This document shows positions 2,673 through 13,150 of a stretch of DNA of 36,139 bases, in pieces. The position numbers were made by a program, and so were the translations under genes. The first letter of the stretch is position 1, and each line of letters opens with the position of its first letter. This stretch comes from Anaerolineaceae bacterium (GTDB taxonomy: Bacteria > Chloroflexota > Anaerolineae > Anaerolineales > Villigracilaceae). Under the pieces are notes generated by a model. It searched no databases. It saw nothing but the letters and a program-made list of their open reading frames with translations, and was not told where the DNA came from. The DNA is taken from positions 1 through 36,139 of the forward strand of contig VFKN01000056.1 in the NCBI GenBank assembly GCA_009885525.1, read 5' to 3'.

Positions 2673-4298
2673 TTATGTTTCAATATCTGCCAGCAAACCT
2701 AATTCAGTCAACGCATCCAATACTTTGGATTCCGCTCCGCTTTTGATGATGACCGCCGTCGGGCTGAGTGCTTCACTCAAAAATTTTCCCGCTTTCGATT
2801 TACGCAACTCTTCCACAATCTCGGGTCGGGTGACTCGTAACACGGTTTGAGTCGTCACCCGCGCCTCGACCCCGTGCGCATCCCATTGCTTGAGCGCCTT
2901 CACCAACGCGGGCGGAACGCTGCCTTTTGTATATTTCACCAGCAATGCCAATAATTGTTCCGCTTTCAAGCCCTGCTGACTGGCCTGCTTCAAAGACTTC
3001 GCAGTGACGTGATATGTGTACTCATCCTGTTTTACATCATCCCATTCGCAAAATCTTGATATTTGATAACGGACTGCGCGCGAAAAATCTCTTGATATAG
3101 TGATTTTTCCATTGGAAGAAATCACCAACTTTCCTTCTTGTAACTTGTAACCCGCAACTTGTAATGCAACGCGGAACGCCGTAAACTCTTTCCCCTCCTC
3201 CGGCGCAGCCAGATCCACTTTACCAAGCCAATGCAGCATTTGAATAAAATATTTAACCAAAGCGCCGTCTACTTGATCCCAATACGCAAATCCGCGCAAA
3301 TATTGACCATCTGATTCGCGCTTGATAAACCAAGAGTCGTAATCACCCGCGGGACGTTGGAAGTCAGGGAATTTTGTTTTCAGGTCGCGCAAAAACGCGG
3401 GCAGACTCCACCACTTGTTTTGCGGAATATCCGCCACCAGATTCATCAAAAACTCGCGCGTTACTTGCGGCTGATTCTGGCGAAGCCACTCACCTTCACA
3501 GATAATCGTGGGAATTAATCGCAGTTCATCAAAGGTTTGCGATTCAAACCATGCGGCATGAAGCATTTTCAATGCATCTTCACGCGAGGCTTCGAGAAAT
3601 TTCTTCACAGATTCGGCTTGCAGTTCGTTCTTTTTTAGGATGTTGGCTGAGGACAATAATTTCTGGAGTGTCGCAGCTTGCTGCGGCTTATCCAACGGCA
3701 AGCCATTGGACTCCAGATTAATGCGCAATGCCGCAAGATAGGTTGTTGCGTCGTCCAAAATATGATCATTCGCTAGAATCTCAAACACTTTTTCAACAGG
3801 TGTTGCAGCACGGCCTAAAGATTCTTCGACCTTCTTTCCTATTTCTTCTTTTTCCCCGCCTTTCATATCTTCGCTGATCATTTCAAACATATCATCGGGG
3901 ATGTAGCCGAATTCCTGCGCGCCTTTGTCTGTATCGAAAAATGCTTTTTCAAGCAAGCCGCGATAAAAGAGAATCTCGGCAGCGGAAATGGGCTTGAGAT
4001 GCGGGTGTTCCCGATCACGGCGGGCTTCGCCCATTTCGCGGATCTCGCCGTGTTTACGGGCGAAGAGCGCCCACTCAATTTTGCCGTTGGATTGGATGAG
4101 CGCCGTCAATGCGGAGCTCGCGTTTGGCGGGAGAATCTCAATCGTTTCGCGCACCGCATCCGCGTCAAGGATGGCTGCGCAGAGTTCTTCGGAAGCCGAA
4201 TCAACATCGCGGGATTCCAATTCCAGCCCCCAGAATCCAGCTACGATGTGGAGATGTCCAAGATCATGTTTTTGAAGTGAGGCGAGAAGATCAGGCAT
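2673..4298 (-). CDS. XPB/Ssl2-type helicase-associated domain protein
   Basis: This 541-residue protein contains no Walker A or B motif, so it is not a helicase by itself. The C-terminal 100 residues (VPPALVKALKQWDAHGVEAR, then TQTVLRVTRPEIVEELR and LSPTAVIIKSG) resemble the helicase-associated (Helicase_C_3 / XPB-Ssl2 N-terminal-like) domain found in uncharacterised proteins of actinobacteria and Chloroflexota. The N-terminal 400 residues are mostly helical with no motif I recognise. A nucleic-acid or transcription/repair role is inferred from the domain only. No Shine-Dalgarno is visible; a TAGAAT box ends 6 bases before the ATG, suggesting a leaderless message. The next gene on this strand is kbl, separated by the palindrome at 2637-2670. 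Confidence 0.6.
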   Translation of the reverse strand: MPDLLASLQKHDLGHLHIVAGFWGLELESRDVDSASEELCAAILDADAVRETIEILPPNASSALTALIQSNGKIEWALFARKHGEIREMGEARRDREHPHLKPISAAEILFYRGLLEKAFFDTDKGAQEFGYIPDDMFEMISEDMKGGEKEEIGKKVEESLGRAATPVEKVFEILANDHILDDATTYLAALRINLESNGLPLDKPQQAATLQKLLSSANILKKNELQAESVKKFLEASREDALKMLHAAWFESQTFDELRLIPTIICEGEWLRQNQPQVTREFLMNLVADIPQNKWWSLPAFLRDLKTKFPDFQRPAGDYDSWFIKRESDGQYLRGFAYWDQVDGALVKYFIQMLHWLGKVDLAAPEEGKEFTAFRVALQVAGYKLQEGKLVISSNGKITISRDFSRAVRYQISRFCEWDDVKQDEYTYHVTAKSLKQASQQGLKAEQLLALLVKYTKGSVPPALVKALKQWDAHGVEARVTTQTVLRVTRPEIVEELRKSKAGKFLSEALSPTAVIIKSGAESKVLDALTELGLLADIET

Positions 4299-10458: not shown

Positions 10459-12249
10459 CTACCTCGCCCCTCTCCTCCCAAACTGCTTCTCCAAAGTATC
10501 CACCGACAAATGGATCATCGTCGGTCTGCCGTGCGGACAAGTTCTTGGCGACTGGCAATTTTCGAGGTCATTGATCAACGCGCGCTGTTCTTCATTTGTG
10601 AGCGTCTGCCCGCCTTTGACGGCGAGACGCTTACACACACGCGCGGCGAGTTTCGCCTCGATTTCACTCTGCAGCGGAGTTTCATCTTCCTCGAAGTCTT
10701 CCACCAGCGCACGCAGCGCGGATGCGGGATCACCGCCGGCAAACAAAACCGGCATCGCGCGCACTTGAAATGTATTCGTGCCGAATTCTTCCACCTCAAA
10801 GCCAAAATGATTCAAGAATGGCAATTGCGGCATCAAAGCCTTCGCGGATTGTGGCGGCAATGTCACAACCTCTGGCGAGAGCAAGGATTGTGATGGGATT
10901 TGTTTTGTGCCATGCTGCGCCATTAATTTCTCAAATAACACACGCTCATGCGCCGCATGTTGATCGATCAAATACAATCCATCCGGACCTTCCGCCACAA
11001 TATACGTCGAGCCGATCTGACCGATCAATCGTAAAAGCGGAACGCCGCCGAAAGAACGATTTTCGATTTCCGATTTCCGATTTACGATTTCATCTTGCGG
11101 CTGACCACTGATAACTGATGACTGGTCACTGTCCACTGATAACTGATCACTATTCACTAATAACTGATCTTCATGCGCAATCGACCAATCAATCCCCACT
11201 TCCCTTCTTTCCGTTGGCACATTGCGCGAGCCCCACAATTGCGGAGAGACCGAAGCAACCGGTGTATACGCCAGCAGCGCCTTACGCGCGGAGCGTTGCA
11301 CGAAACTGAAAATTTTGTCCTGACTCTTAAAGCGAACTTCCGCTTTTGTCGGATGCACATTCACATCCACATCTTCAGGCGCGACCTCTAAAAATAACGC
11401 CGTCAGCGGATAACGGCCGACCATCAACAGCGTGTGATAGGCTTGCAGCAATGCAGTGGTTAAAGAAAATTCCTGTACCCAGCGGCCATTAACAAAGAAT
11501 GTGATTTCCCTGCGGTTCGAGCGGGTCAGCGATATCGGACTGATAAATCCTGTAAGAGATAAACCATCTTCCATTGCCATCACTTCGAGCATTTGCTTGG
11601 CAACATCCACGCCGTATAACGCGGCGAGAATGGAACGGCGATCTCCATCACCGGCGGTTTGCAATGTGATCTGTTTGCCGTCCGTCACTTTGAAGCGCAC
11701 ATTCGGATATGCCAGCGCATACCGCGTGACGAGAGAATCAACGGCGCGTTTTTCGGTCACATCGGCTTTCAAGAATTTCAAACGCGCGGGTACGTTATAA
11801 AATAAATTTTCCACGCGCAGCACTGTCCCAACCGGCGCGCCGACTTTTTCAACTTTGCCAAAAATGCCGCCATCCACTTTTATGCGCGCGCCTTCTTTGG
11901 CAGCAGCAATTCGAGATGTGATCGTCATCTGCGAGATGGAGCCAATCGAGGCGAGGGCTTCGCCGCGGAATCCCAAAGTGGAGATGCGAAAAAGATCAGC
12001 GGATTGAGTCAACTTCGAGGTCGCATGACGCGCAGCGGCGAGTTCCAATTCATCCGCCGGAATCCCAAATCCATCATCGGCAACTTCGACGAGCGTGCGT
12101 CCCGCATCCGCGATTGAAATCGAAATATTTTTTGCGCCCGCATCCAAAGCGTTTTCGGTTAATTCTTTAACCACAGAAGCGGGGCGTTCCACAACTTCAC
12201 CCGCGGCGATCTGCGAAGAGACATCGGAAGATAAAAGTCGAATAGGCAT
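10459..12249 (-). CDS. mutL: DNA mismatch repair protein MutL (endonuclease type)
   Basis: With the ATG at 12249, MutL has 596 residues. The N-terminal GHKL ATPase shows KELTENALDAG (E29, N33), VADDGFGIP (D58), RHATSKL and GFRGEALASIGS. The C-terminal nuclease domain has DQHAAHERVLFE, the metal-binding DQHA(x)2E(x)4E motif, together with CKRLAVKGG and CPHGRPT, so this MutL should nick DNA as in bacteria lacking MutH. The linker carries a 114-bp repeat-derived segment (11056-11169). A TTG at 12270 in the same frame is an unlikely start. There is no Shine-Dalgarno; TATAAT lies exactly 6 bases before the ATG, suggesting a leaderless transcript. No mutS is nearby. Confidence 0.93.
   Translation of the reverse strand: MPIRLLSSDVSSQIAAGEVVERPASVVKELTENALDAGAKNISISIADAGRTLVEVADDGFGIPADELELAAARHATSKLTQSADLFRISTLGFRGEALASIGSISQMTITSRIAAAKEGARIKVDGGIFGKVEKVGAPVGTVLRVENLFYNVPARLKFLKADVTEKRAVDSLVTRYALAYPNVRFKVTDGKQITLQTAGDGDRRSILAALYGVDVAKQMLEVMAMEDGLSLTGFISPISLTRSNRREITFFVNGRWVQEFSLTTALLQAYHTLLMVGRYPLTALFLEVAPEDVDVNVHPTKAEVRFKSQDKIFSFVQRSARKALLAYTPVASVSPQLWGSRNVPTERREVGIDWSIAHEDQLLVNSDQLSVDSDQSSVISGQPQDEIVNRKSEIENRSFGGVPLLRLIGQIGSTYIVAEGPDGLYLIDQHAAHERVLFEKLMAQHGTKQIPSQSLLSPEVVTLPPQSAKALMPQLPFLNHFGFEVEEFGTNTFQVRAMPVLFAGGDPASALRALVEDFEEDETPLQSEIEAKLAARVCKRLAVKGGQTLTNEEQRALINDLENCQSPRTCPHGRPTMIHLSVDTLEKQFGRRGAR
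11056..11169 (-). repeat. Repeat-derived segment inside the mutL linker
   Basis: Two simple-repeat types lie back to back in the region coding for the interdomain linker. One is a degenerate cagttatcagtg/gatcagtta tandem (about 11112-11169), the other a tandem of aaatcgg-type heptamers (11056-11089). Together they span 38 codons without a stop and code for a Ser/Asp/Gln-rich, then Asn/Arg/Lys/Glu-rich low-complexity stretch. Confidence 0.65.
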
Positions 12250-12255
12250 AAGCGG

Positions 12256-12263
12256 ATTATAAT
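12256..12263. promoter_or_regulatory. Symmetrical -10 element ATTATAAT for mutL and the HAD gene
   Basis: Plus-strand TATAAT (12258-12263) is followed by 6 bases and the ATG of the HAD gene at 12270. Minus-strand TATAAT (12261-12256) is followed by 6 bases and the ATG of mutL at 12249. One palindrome can thus serve both genes and place both transcription starts at the start codons. No good -35 box is visible on either side. Confidence 0.55.
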
Positions 12264-12269
12264 CGCCCA

Positions 12270-12902
12270 ATGCGATTCACTACGATTTTTTTTGATCTCG
12301 ACGATACGCTTTATCCGTCTCACGCGGGGCTTTGGCACGCCATCAAAGAACGCATGAACGATTACATGCGCGAGCGGCTGCAAATTCCCGAAAAAGATAT
12401 TCAGCAGTTGCGCGAAAAATATTATCTACAATACGGAACCACCACGCGCGGATTACAGGAACACCACAACATTGACACACAGGATTTCCTGGCTTACGTG
12501 CATGATCTGCCGCTCGAAGATTATCTCACCCCGAATTCTATTCAACGCTCGGTGATCGCATCCCTGCCGACCCGCAATTTTGTTTTTACAAACGCCGATA
12601 TTCCCCACGCCCAAAGAACGCTGACCGCACTCAATCTGCACGACCTGTTCCCCAACATTATTGATGTGAACACCGTCGCGCCGTATTGCAAACCGATGCG
12701 CGAATCATTCGAGATCGCCATGAAGGTCGCGGGCGAAGACGACCCCTCACGCTGCGTGATGATCGACGATCTTGCGCGCACCACCCGCGCCGCGCATGAA
12801 GCCGGTATGTTCAGTATTTTATATCACGACGAATACACAGCCAACGACGCCGACGCGCATTTCACAGACTGGGGAAAATTGATAGATATTTTGGAGACAT
12901 AA
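12270..12902 (+). CDS. HAD-superfamily pyrimidine 5'-nucleotidase-like phosphatase
   Basis: This 210-residue HAD hydrolase carries all four motifs: FFDLDDTLYPS (nucleophile D9 and acid D11), FVFTNAD, the lysine in YCKPMRESF, and MIDDLART. The helical cap between motifs I and II fits the SDT1/pyrimidine 5'-nucleotidase group, which dephosphorylates UMP/CMP or related nucleotides in the cytosol; the substrate is inferred from overall resemblance only. There is no Shine-Dalgarno, and the ATG lies 6 bases after a TATAAT shared with mutL. A small membrane protein gene begins 5 bp after the stop and is probably cotranscribed. Confidence 0.82.
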   Translation: MRFTTIFFDLDDTLYPSHAGLWHAIKERMNDYMRERLQIPEKDIQQLREKYYLQYGTTTRGLQEHHNIDTQDFLAYVHDLPLEDYLTPNSIQRSVIASLPTRNFVFTNADIPHAQRTLTALNLHDLFPNIIDVNTVAPYCKPMRESFEIAMKVAGEDDPSRCVMIDDLARTTRAAHEAGMFSILYHDEYTANDADAHFTDWGKLIDILET

Positions 12903-12907
12903 TAATT

Positions 12908-13150
12908 ATGGAAGAAAACAAAGCCGTCATCGGCGCCTTGATCTTTATCGTTATGGTCATCGGCGCGAACTTCATCATGTACGGCATCGCGCGTGGATGG
13001 GCAAAGCCGGGCAACAAGAATTTTTTAGAAACGCTCGGTCAATCCTTTAATCCCGCGCAGAAAAAAGATGATGCGATGGATGAACTTCACCGTAAACTGG
13101 AAGAACTGGAAAAAGGTAAGAAAACAGATTCGGGGGAATCTAAACCCTGA
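12908..13150 (+). CDS. Small single-span membrane protein with a coiled-coil tail
   Basis: This 80-residue protein has one membrane segment (about residues 7-27, AVIGALIFIVMVIGANFIMY) followed by a charged helical tail with heptad-like MDELHRKLEELEKGKK. I do not recognise the family. The GGAG of the last HAD codons lies 11 bases before the ATG, so translation is probably coupled to the upstream gene. The function is unknown; it could be a membrane-tethered scaffold. Confidence 0.65.
   Translation: MEENKAVIGALIFIVMVIGANFIMYGIARGWAKPGNKNFLETLGQSFNPAQKKDDAMDELHRKLEELEKGKKTDSGESKP

Follow-up and report, generated by a model that had tools for sequence, protein, structure and literature searches.

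A conserved palindromic -10 box between divergent mutL and pyrimidine 5'-nucleotidase genes is a putative shared promoter of two leaderless mRNAs

In Escherichia coli, bidirectional promoters initiate transcription in opposite directions from start sites that are most often 18 bp apart, with distances of 10 and 23 bp also common and small variations allowed (PMC12825309, PMC10268837). The opposing polymerases are mutually exclusive at these promoters, and low basal activity keeps competition between them small (PMC12825309). Shared -10 elements are established in the literature, in line with the original prediction for the locus described here, which had treated divergent transcription from symmetrical -10 elements as already known in bacteria. 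A second described system is that of bacterial leaderless genes, which carry a TANNNT or TATAAT box some 12 bp upstream of the start codon; Chloroflexi are named with the pattern TAtaaT, and the table lists 4 of 12 Chloroflexi genomes at 4.7% (4.0-5.7) (PMC3160421). In the archaeon Pyrococcus furiosus, one symmetrical TATA element drives RNA synthesis both ways in vitro, from starts 49 bp apart (PMC6640164). The terms "leaderless" and "start codon" do not occur in the main text of PMC12825309 or PMC10268837, and "divergent" and "bidirectional" do not occur in the main text of PMC3160421. Among the titles, abstract openings, and selected passages of openly licensed literature, we found no description of back-to-back leaderless genes with one common -10 box, nor any entry on leaderless start sites in Anaerolineae among the papers listed.

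The locus lies in a window of 36,139 nucleotides, the whole stretch of DNA that was analyzed, which is contig C72 of a draft genome (4.10 Mb, 206 contigs) classified in the Villigracilaceae (Chloroflexota). Two divergent genes face away from each other. The DNA mismatch repair gene mutL occupies positions 10459-12249 on the minus strand (TIGR00585, 535.3 bits against a cutoff of 180), and a gene of the pyrimidine 5'-nucleotidase family within the HAD superfamily (here, the HAD gene) occupies positions 12270-12902 on the plus strand (TIGR01993, 184.6 bits against a cutoff of 142.9). Both are predicted to be leaderless. Their ATGs are separated by 20 bp, and the octamer ATTATAAT sits at 12256-12263, 6 bp from each. 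The plus strand thus reads CAT (12247-12249, the mutL start on the minus strand), AAGCGG, ATTATAAT, CGCCCA, and ATG (12270-12272, the HAD start). A TATAAT hexamer is present on the plus strand at 12258-12263 for the HAD gene and on the minus strand at 12256-12261 for mutL, and the TATA at 12258-12261 is common to both, such that the -10 hexamers of the two strands overlap in one element. The original prediction had placed a palindrome midway between the starts, with TATAAT, six bases, and ATG on each strand, and this geometry is exact. The window contains a single copy of the full arrangement, CATN6ATTATAATN6ATG, which is absent from all 100 dinucleotide-preserving shuffles. The bare octamer also occurs once, where 0.61 copies are expected, so that ATTATAAT is remarkable only by its position and not as a palindrome in itself.

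On both strands, the TATAAT box ends 6 nt before the ATG, as leaderless placement, with +1 on the start codon, requires. From the position of the box, we predict +1 at 12249 for mutL and at 12270 for the HAD gene. Extended mechanically, the mutL open reading frame (ORF) runs on to an in-frame TTG at 12270. This alternative start is not conserved, because the 36 aligned 20-bp intervals, among them that of the window, contain the TTG in only 12 cases, while the ATG is in the same place in all 36. Neither gene has a Shine-Dalgarno sequence, as had been claimed for the window, where inspection by eye agrees; among 37 relatives with a short intergenic gap, Shine-Dalgarno-like 4- and 5-mers were found 4 to 16 nt before 0 of 74 starts, an absence that is partly automatic since the box fills that region. 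In 37 relatives with two separate boxes, Shine-Dalgarno-like 5-mers were likewise found at 0 of 74 starts. We also observed an ORF of 80 codons that begins 5 bp past the HAD gene and is preceded by GGAG (12890-13150). It has no Pfam or NCBIfam match and is probably the Shine-Dalgarno-led second gene of an operon whose first gene is leaderless.

To place the interval in an evolutionary context, we scanned genome contigs for relatives of mutL and kept the best 80 of 268, most of them from metagenome assemblies. In 74 of these, a divergent HAD gene was adjacent and measurable. The other six were dropped from the counts below because the HAD match begins more than 1 kb away (L018, L033, L074, and L083), because there is no HAD match (L052), or because the match starts at residue 4 and lies more than 1 kb away (L076); all six carry TATAAT-N6-ATG upstream of mutL. 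The 74 pairs fall into two forms of equal size. In 37, the gap is 20 bp (n = 35) or 21 bp (n = 2), and the octamer is ATTATAAT in every one, as in the window, with linkers that drift. Across the 36 aligned 20-bp intervals (35 relatives plus the window), entropy is zero at all eight positions of the box. At 11 of the 12 linker positions it ranges from 0.98 to 1.80 bits, with 0.49 at the HAD-side position adjoining the box, and there are 33 distinct linker pairs. The linkers, or discriminators, at 12264-12269 (plus strand, HAD side) and 12250-12255 (minus strand, mutL side) are therefore variable in sequence and nearly fixed in length: spacing to the HAD start is 6 nt in 37 of 37 short-gap relatives, and spacing to the mutL start is 6 nt in 35 and 7 nt in 2.

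In the remaining 37 pairs, the gap is 27 to 172 bp, and nearly all of them have two separate boxes. Here the HAD gene has TATAAT at 6 nt from its start in 33 loci and at 7 nt in 3, with no exact box in 1. For mutL, the hexamer is at 6 nt in 32 loci and at 5 nt in 1, and the 4 loci that lack an exact TATAAT have TAAAAT or TAGAAT at 6 nt instead. Because the two-box loci keep hexamer and spacing for each gene separately, each gene's own TATAAT-N6-start is the conserved unit. The palindrome is the outcome of packing two perfect TATAAT-N6 boxes into 20 bp with four bases in common. The original prediction of one -10 box serving two leaderless genes is thus strongly supported by the comparison of relatives. 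Its reading of the box as a symmetrical element calls for one refinement, since longer-gap loci mostly retain the hexamers and not the symmetry.

The shared and two-box forms are intermingled in the phylogeny. On a tree obtained by a quick search from joined MutL and HAD proteins (75 sequences), at least 14 changes of form are needed, 10 of which are forced by strongly supported branches; a quick tree of MutL only also requires at least 14, with 7 forced. A single clade for the shared form, with the group set by gap length when the tree was already known, was rejected on the quick tree (p-AU = 5e-63). If only fusion is allowed, 19 origins are needed, and if only splitting is allowed, 15, counts that do not settle the direction of change. 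In three sister pairs (L009/L010, L016/L038, and L053/L055), one member is distinguished from the other by an insert that lies between the TATA cores. Between L009 and L010, only 3 of 180 HAD-side bases and 2 of 120 mutL-side bases differ. Judging from these comparisons, the two forms have interchanged repeatedly in evolution. The route was probably deletion between the TATA cores, which would act as short direct repeats, flanking a hairpin in some loci; a loss of this kind would leave a correctly spaced box at both genes. A TATA-to-TATA deletion would yield the exact N6-ATTATAAT-N6 arrangement in 30 of the 37 two-box loci.

Scattered two-box loci (L008, L010, L012, L013, and L020, at about 2930-3000) carry a related hairpin, TGCCTGCAAATTG...CAATTTGCAGGC, between their boxes, and by eye a related hairpin is also present between the -10 boxes of L021, L029, L035, and L038. 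The hairpin may function as an operator or facilitate deletion. Its likeness across separate branches, as judged by eye, suggests that the two-box form is old in the hairpin-bearing clade and that fusion came later. We considered a mobile-element origin of the insert by searching nine genomes for the exact pattern GCAAATTG-N(0-16)-CAATTTGC, from which the inserts of other loci deviate. The genomes of L010 and L008 (G155 and G156) have one match each, which is their own insert; the insert is therefore single copy in both, and a mobile-element origin was rejected for these two loci. Six of the nine genomes, including that of the window, have no exact match, and counts for the reversed pattern were 0 to 2 across the nine. 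The genome of L035 (G161) has five exact matches versus one for the reversed pattern, although the insert of L035 itself is not an exact match, and the short GCAAATTG-CAATTTGC palindrome is possibly a dispersed site in that genome.

The combination of hexamer and spacing is not confined to mutL and its neighbor. In the genome to which the window belongs, TATAATN6ATG occurs at 86 sites versus 22 for a reversed control, and 26 of the first 30 of these sites open ORFs of at least 90 codons. In a 418-kb sample restricted to ATGs with open frames of 100 codons or more, TATAAT was found 9 times at a spacer of 6 and 6 times at a spacer of 7, versus counts of 0 to 3 for every other spacer in the 0-24 range. 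When one mismatch was tolerated, the counts at 6 and 7 were 15 and 11, and the other 28 spacers averaged 2.9 (range, 0 to 7). Among 319 roughly called genes, 29 have the box before some possible start (chance matches included), 4 of which also have a Shine-Dalgarno-like match; such a match was present in 96 genes, and 198 had neither signal. On these counts, TATAAT-N6-ATG is a genome-wide leaderless signature, with +1 predicted on or next to the A of the ATG because the box ends 6 to 7 nt before the start codon. Neither a TTGACA-like element at 16 to 18 bp (2.46 matches versus 2.19 to 2.73 at control spacers) nor an extended TG (1 of 26) was enriched in this leaderless set. The same genome also contains a divergent leaderless-type pair in the two-box form (L177/L178; G000:C16:9199-9250), with a gap of 46 bp and TATAAT 6 nt upstream of each ATG.

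We then asked how often the strict double pattern, CATN6ATTATAATN6ATG, recurs. It is present at three places in the genome of the window and, among 100 family genomes, at a total of 25 sites spread over 23, versus 1 for the reversed control; two-box forms, genes starting with GTG, and spacers of 7 nt escape the pattern, and 77 of the 100 genomes lack it. Of these sites, 22 lie between divergent genes, in pairs of five kinds: 15 are mutL/HAD pairs, and 7 are others in which each side has 150 codons or more. The latter, with names from Pfam for one locus per kind (L097, L003, L084, and L094) and by reading for the rest, comprise a methyltransferase with an aminoacyl-tRNA editing domain (L097, L098, and L099), a methyltransferase with a PAPS reductase (L003, from the genome of the window, and L093), a sub-threshold M23-peptidase match with DnaG primase (L084), and a creatininase with an RsmF-type rRNA methyltransferase (L094). 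The other three sites (L002, also from the genome of the window, L090, and L103) are not such pairs. At L002 (1480-1526; G000:C93), ATTATAAT serves a leaderless-type gene, tRNA-editing-like by eye, on one side. On the other side, the nearest ATG opens only 15 codons, and a longer ORF, threonine aldolase-like by eye, lies farther on behind AAGGAG, so here the box may be shared between a leaderless gene and a leadered one.

Altering the linkers changed the outcome. In the same 100 genomes, linkers of 5 nt on both sides gave 0 sites (control, 2) and linkers of 7 nt gave 2 (control, 1), one between ORFs of 501 codons (cut by the end of the locus) and 484 codons (L156) and one with ORFs of 15 and 296 codons (L157). 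By these counts, linker length matters for the double arrangement. A gap of 14 bp gave no sites and a gap of 22 bp gave one, with ORFs of 451 and 388 codons. The pattern CATN5TATAATAN5ATG, with predicted starts 18 bp apart, gave 13 sites versus 5 for its reversed control, and 2 of the 10 loci examined had long ORFs on both sides, representing one pair that occurs twice. These two loci (L158 and L159, 1501-1523), from two family genomes, have a 17-bp gap with TATAATA and a predicted start-site distance that matches the one in E. coli, flanked by genes that by eye are radical-SAM-like and MobA-like.

Set against the rest of the phylum, the strict pattern was found in 9 of 12 family genomes versus 1 of 139 others. 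That single site has ORFs of only 65 and 50 codons, and the 139 genomes also give one reversed-control site. We also examined 24 mutL loci of Chloroflexota that do not belong to the family (L132-L155). They showed no HAD match in the upstream DNA examined, which mostly spanned 1.5 kb (321 bases in L135 and 556 in L144). None of the 24 has TATAAT 5 to 8 nt before the mapped mutL start, which is uncertain in 6 of them because the alignment does not begin at residue 1.

Taken at the level of sequence, ATTATAAT is very probably a bidirectional, essentially -10-only promoter that fires two leaderless mRNAs, with 21 bp between their start sites. The housekeeping sigma factor would engage the octamer in either orientation, and RNA polymerase would begin each transcript at the A of the ATG or beside it, as predicted from a -10 box that ends 6 nt upstream. 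The mutL mRNA would run leftwards and the pyrimidine 5'-nucleotidase mRNA rightwards. Because one polymerase footprint covers both sites, the two initiations would be mutually exclusive at any moment. We found no TTGACA-like hexamer at the canonical sigma-70 distance of 16 to 18 bp upstream in either direction. A hidden -35 element was sought as the best TTGACA match at spacers of 15 to 19 within the opposite gene. For the HAD promoter, shared (n = 38) and two-box (n = 37) loci gave best matches of 2.32 and 2.24 (P = 0.49), and for the mutL promoter 3.29 and 3.46 (P = 0.41). Since the matches are equal in the two forms, we saw no -35 signal beyond coding constraint. Promoter strength may be low, given that no -35 element is detectable here and that the leaderless set of the same genome is at background.

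A palindrome between divergent genes could also be the operator of a dimeric regulator, with the real promoters elsewhere. In favor of this, the 8-bp box is perfectly palindromic and shows no variation in 37 of 37 short-gap loci. However, relatives with longer gaps usually lose the palindrome (e.g., GGGTATAATCG) and mostly keep TATAAT plus 6 nt on both sides, so the box does not resemble an operator whose symmetry is being preserved, and elsewhere in the genome many genes are preceded by this hexamer at this spacing. Already disfavored by the two-box relatives, an operator is highly improbable. It is also hardly probable at all, and to our minds least so, that the box serves only one gene, in which case the other would depend on read-through or on an internal site and the symmetry would be incidental. 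Near-symmetrical -10 boxes are indeed common by chance, at 0.61 ATTATAAT expected per window, but hexamer and spacing are conserved on both sides, wider gaps usually come with a box for each gene, and a single read-through transcript cannot supply both genes because they are divergent.

Somewhat more weight, while still quite improbable, falls to transcription from farther upstream within the opposite gene, in which case TATAAT would be a translational or structural element of the leader. The constant 6 nt to the start codon would also suit a ribosome-binding element, and mutL has the alternative in-frame TTG. Yet the hexamer is the -10 consensus itself, and TA-like signals some 12 bp upstream of start codons, TAtaaT of Chloroflexi among them, are interpreted as leaderless promoters in PMC3160421. 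Moreover, a promoter scan of 11900-12620 returned 0 matches to -35/-10 promoters where 0.6 were expected by chance, a scan that is blind to -10-only promoters, and codons of the opposite gene carry no extra -35 match in shared relative to two-box loci.

If the shared-promoter reading is right, the start signals of both genes fit into 20 bp in which nothing but the central box is conserved, which is close to a minimal divergent promoter. The mutL/HAD case suggests how two promoters can fuse with neither being lost. The many natural conversions between the forms, such as the near-identical L009 and L010, are ready-made pairs for testing promoter sharing, including competition, noise, and coregulation. 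We tentatively combine these strands, in a reading to which we give somewhat less than an even chance: back-to-back leaderless pairs in this family would repeatedly fuse their -10 boxes by deletion between TATA cores, and may separate them again, leaving the two genes to compete. If true, mutL and a nucleotide-pool enzyme, along with four or more further kinds of gene pair, would be driven by a -10-only divergent promoter of 20 bp that lacks any additional control sequence. Under fusion, the two genes would compete for each polymerase, and mismatch repair would thereby be tied to nucleotide cleanup. In E. coli, YjjG cleans up odd pyrimidine nucleotides; a link between mismatch repair and the removal of such nucleotides is only a thought.

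Compared with known systems, the two-box relatives are ordinary divergent pairs with separate promoters, from which the shared form differs in that its two -10 boxes overlap in one 8-bp element. The P. furiosus element also works in both directions, but it relies on archaeal TBP and TATA, its starts are 49 bp apart, and its divergent RNA is antisense rather than a second leaderless mRNA (PMC6640164). The locus resembles the bidirectional promoters of Warman, Grainger, and colleagues, in which one -10 region is usable in both orientations, start sites lie on either side of or inside the shared -10 element, and opposing polymerases cannot bind together (PMC12825309, PMC10268837). Unlike the promoters described there, it has a perfect TATAAT on both strands, predicted starts that coincide with start codons, and a predicted start-site distance of 21 bp rather than 18, 10, or 23 bp. 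In turn, it shares with the leaderless genes of PMC3160421 the same signal in the same place. The mutL/HAD arrangement is therefore a new combination of two known things, bidirectional promoters and leaderless genes.
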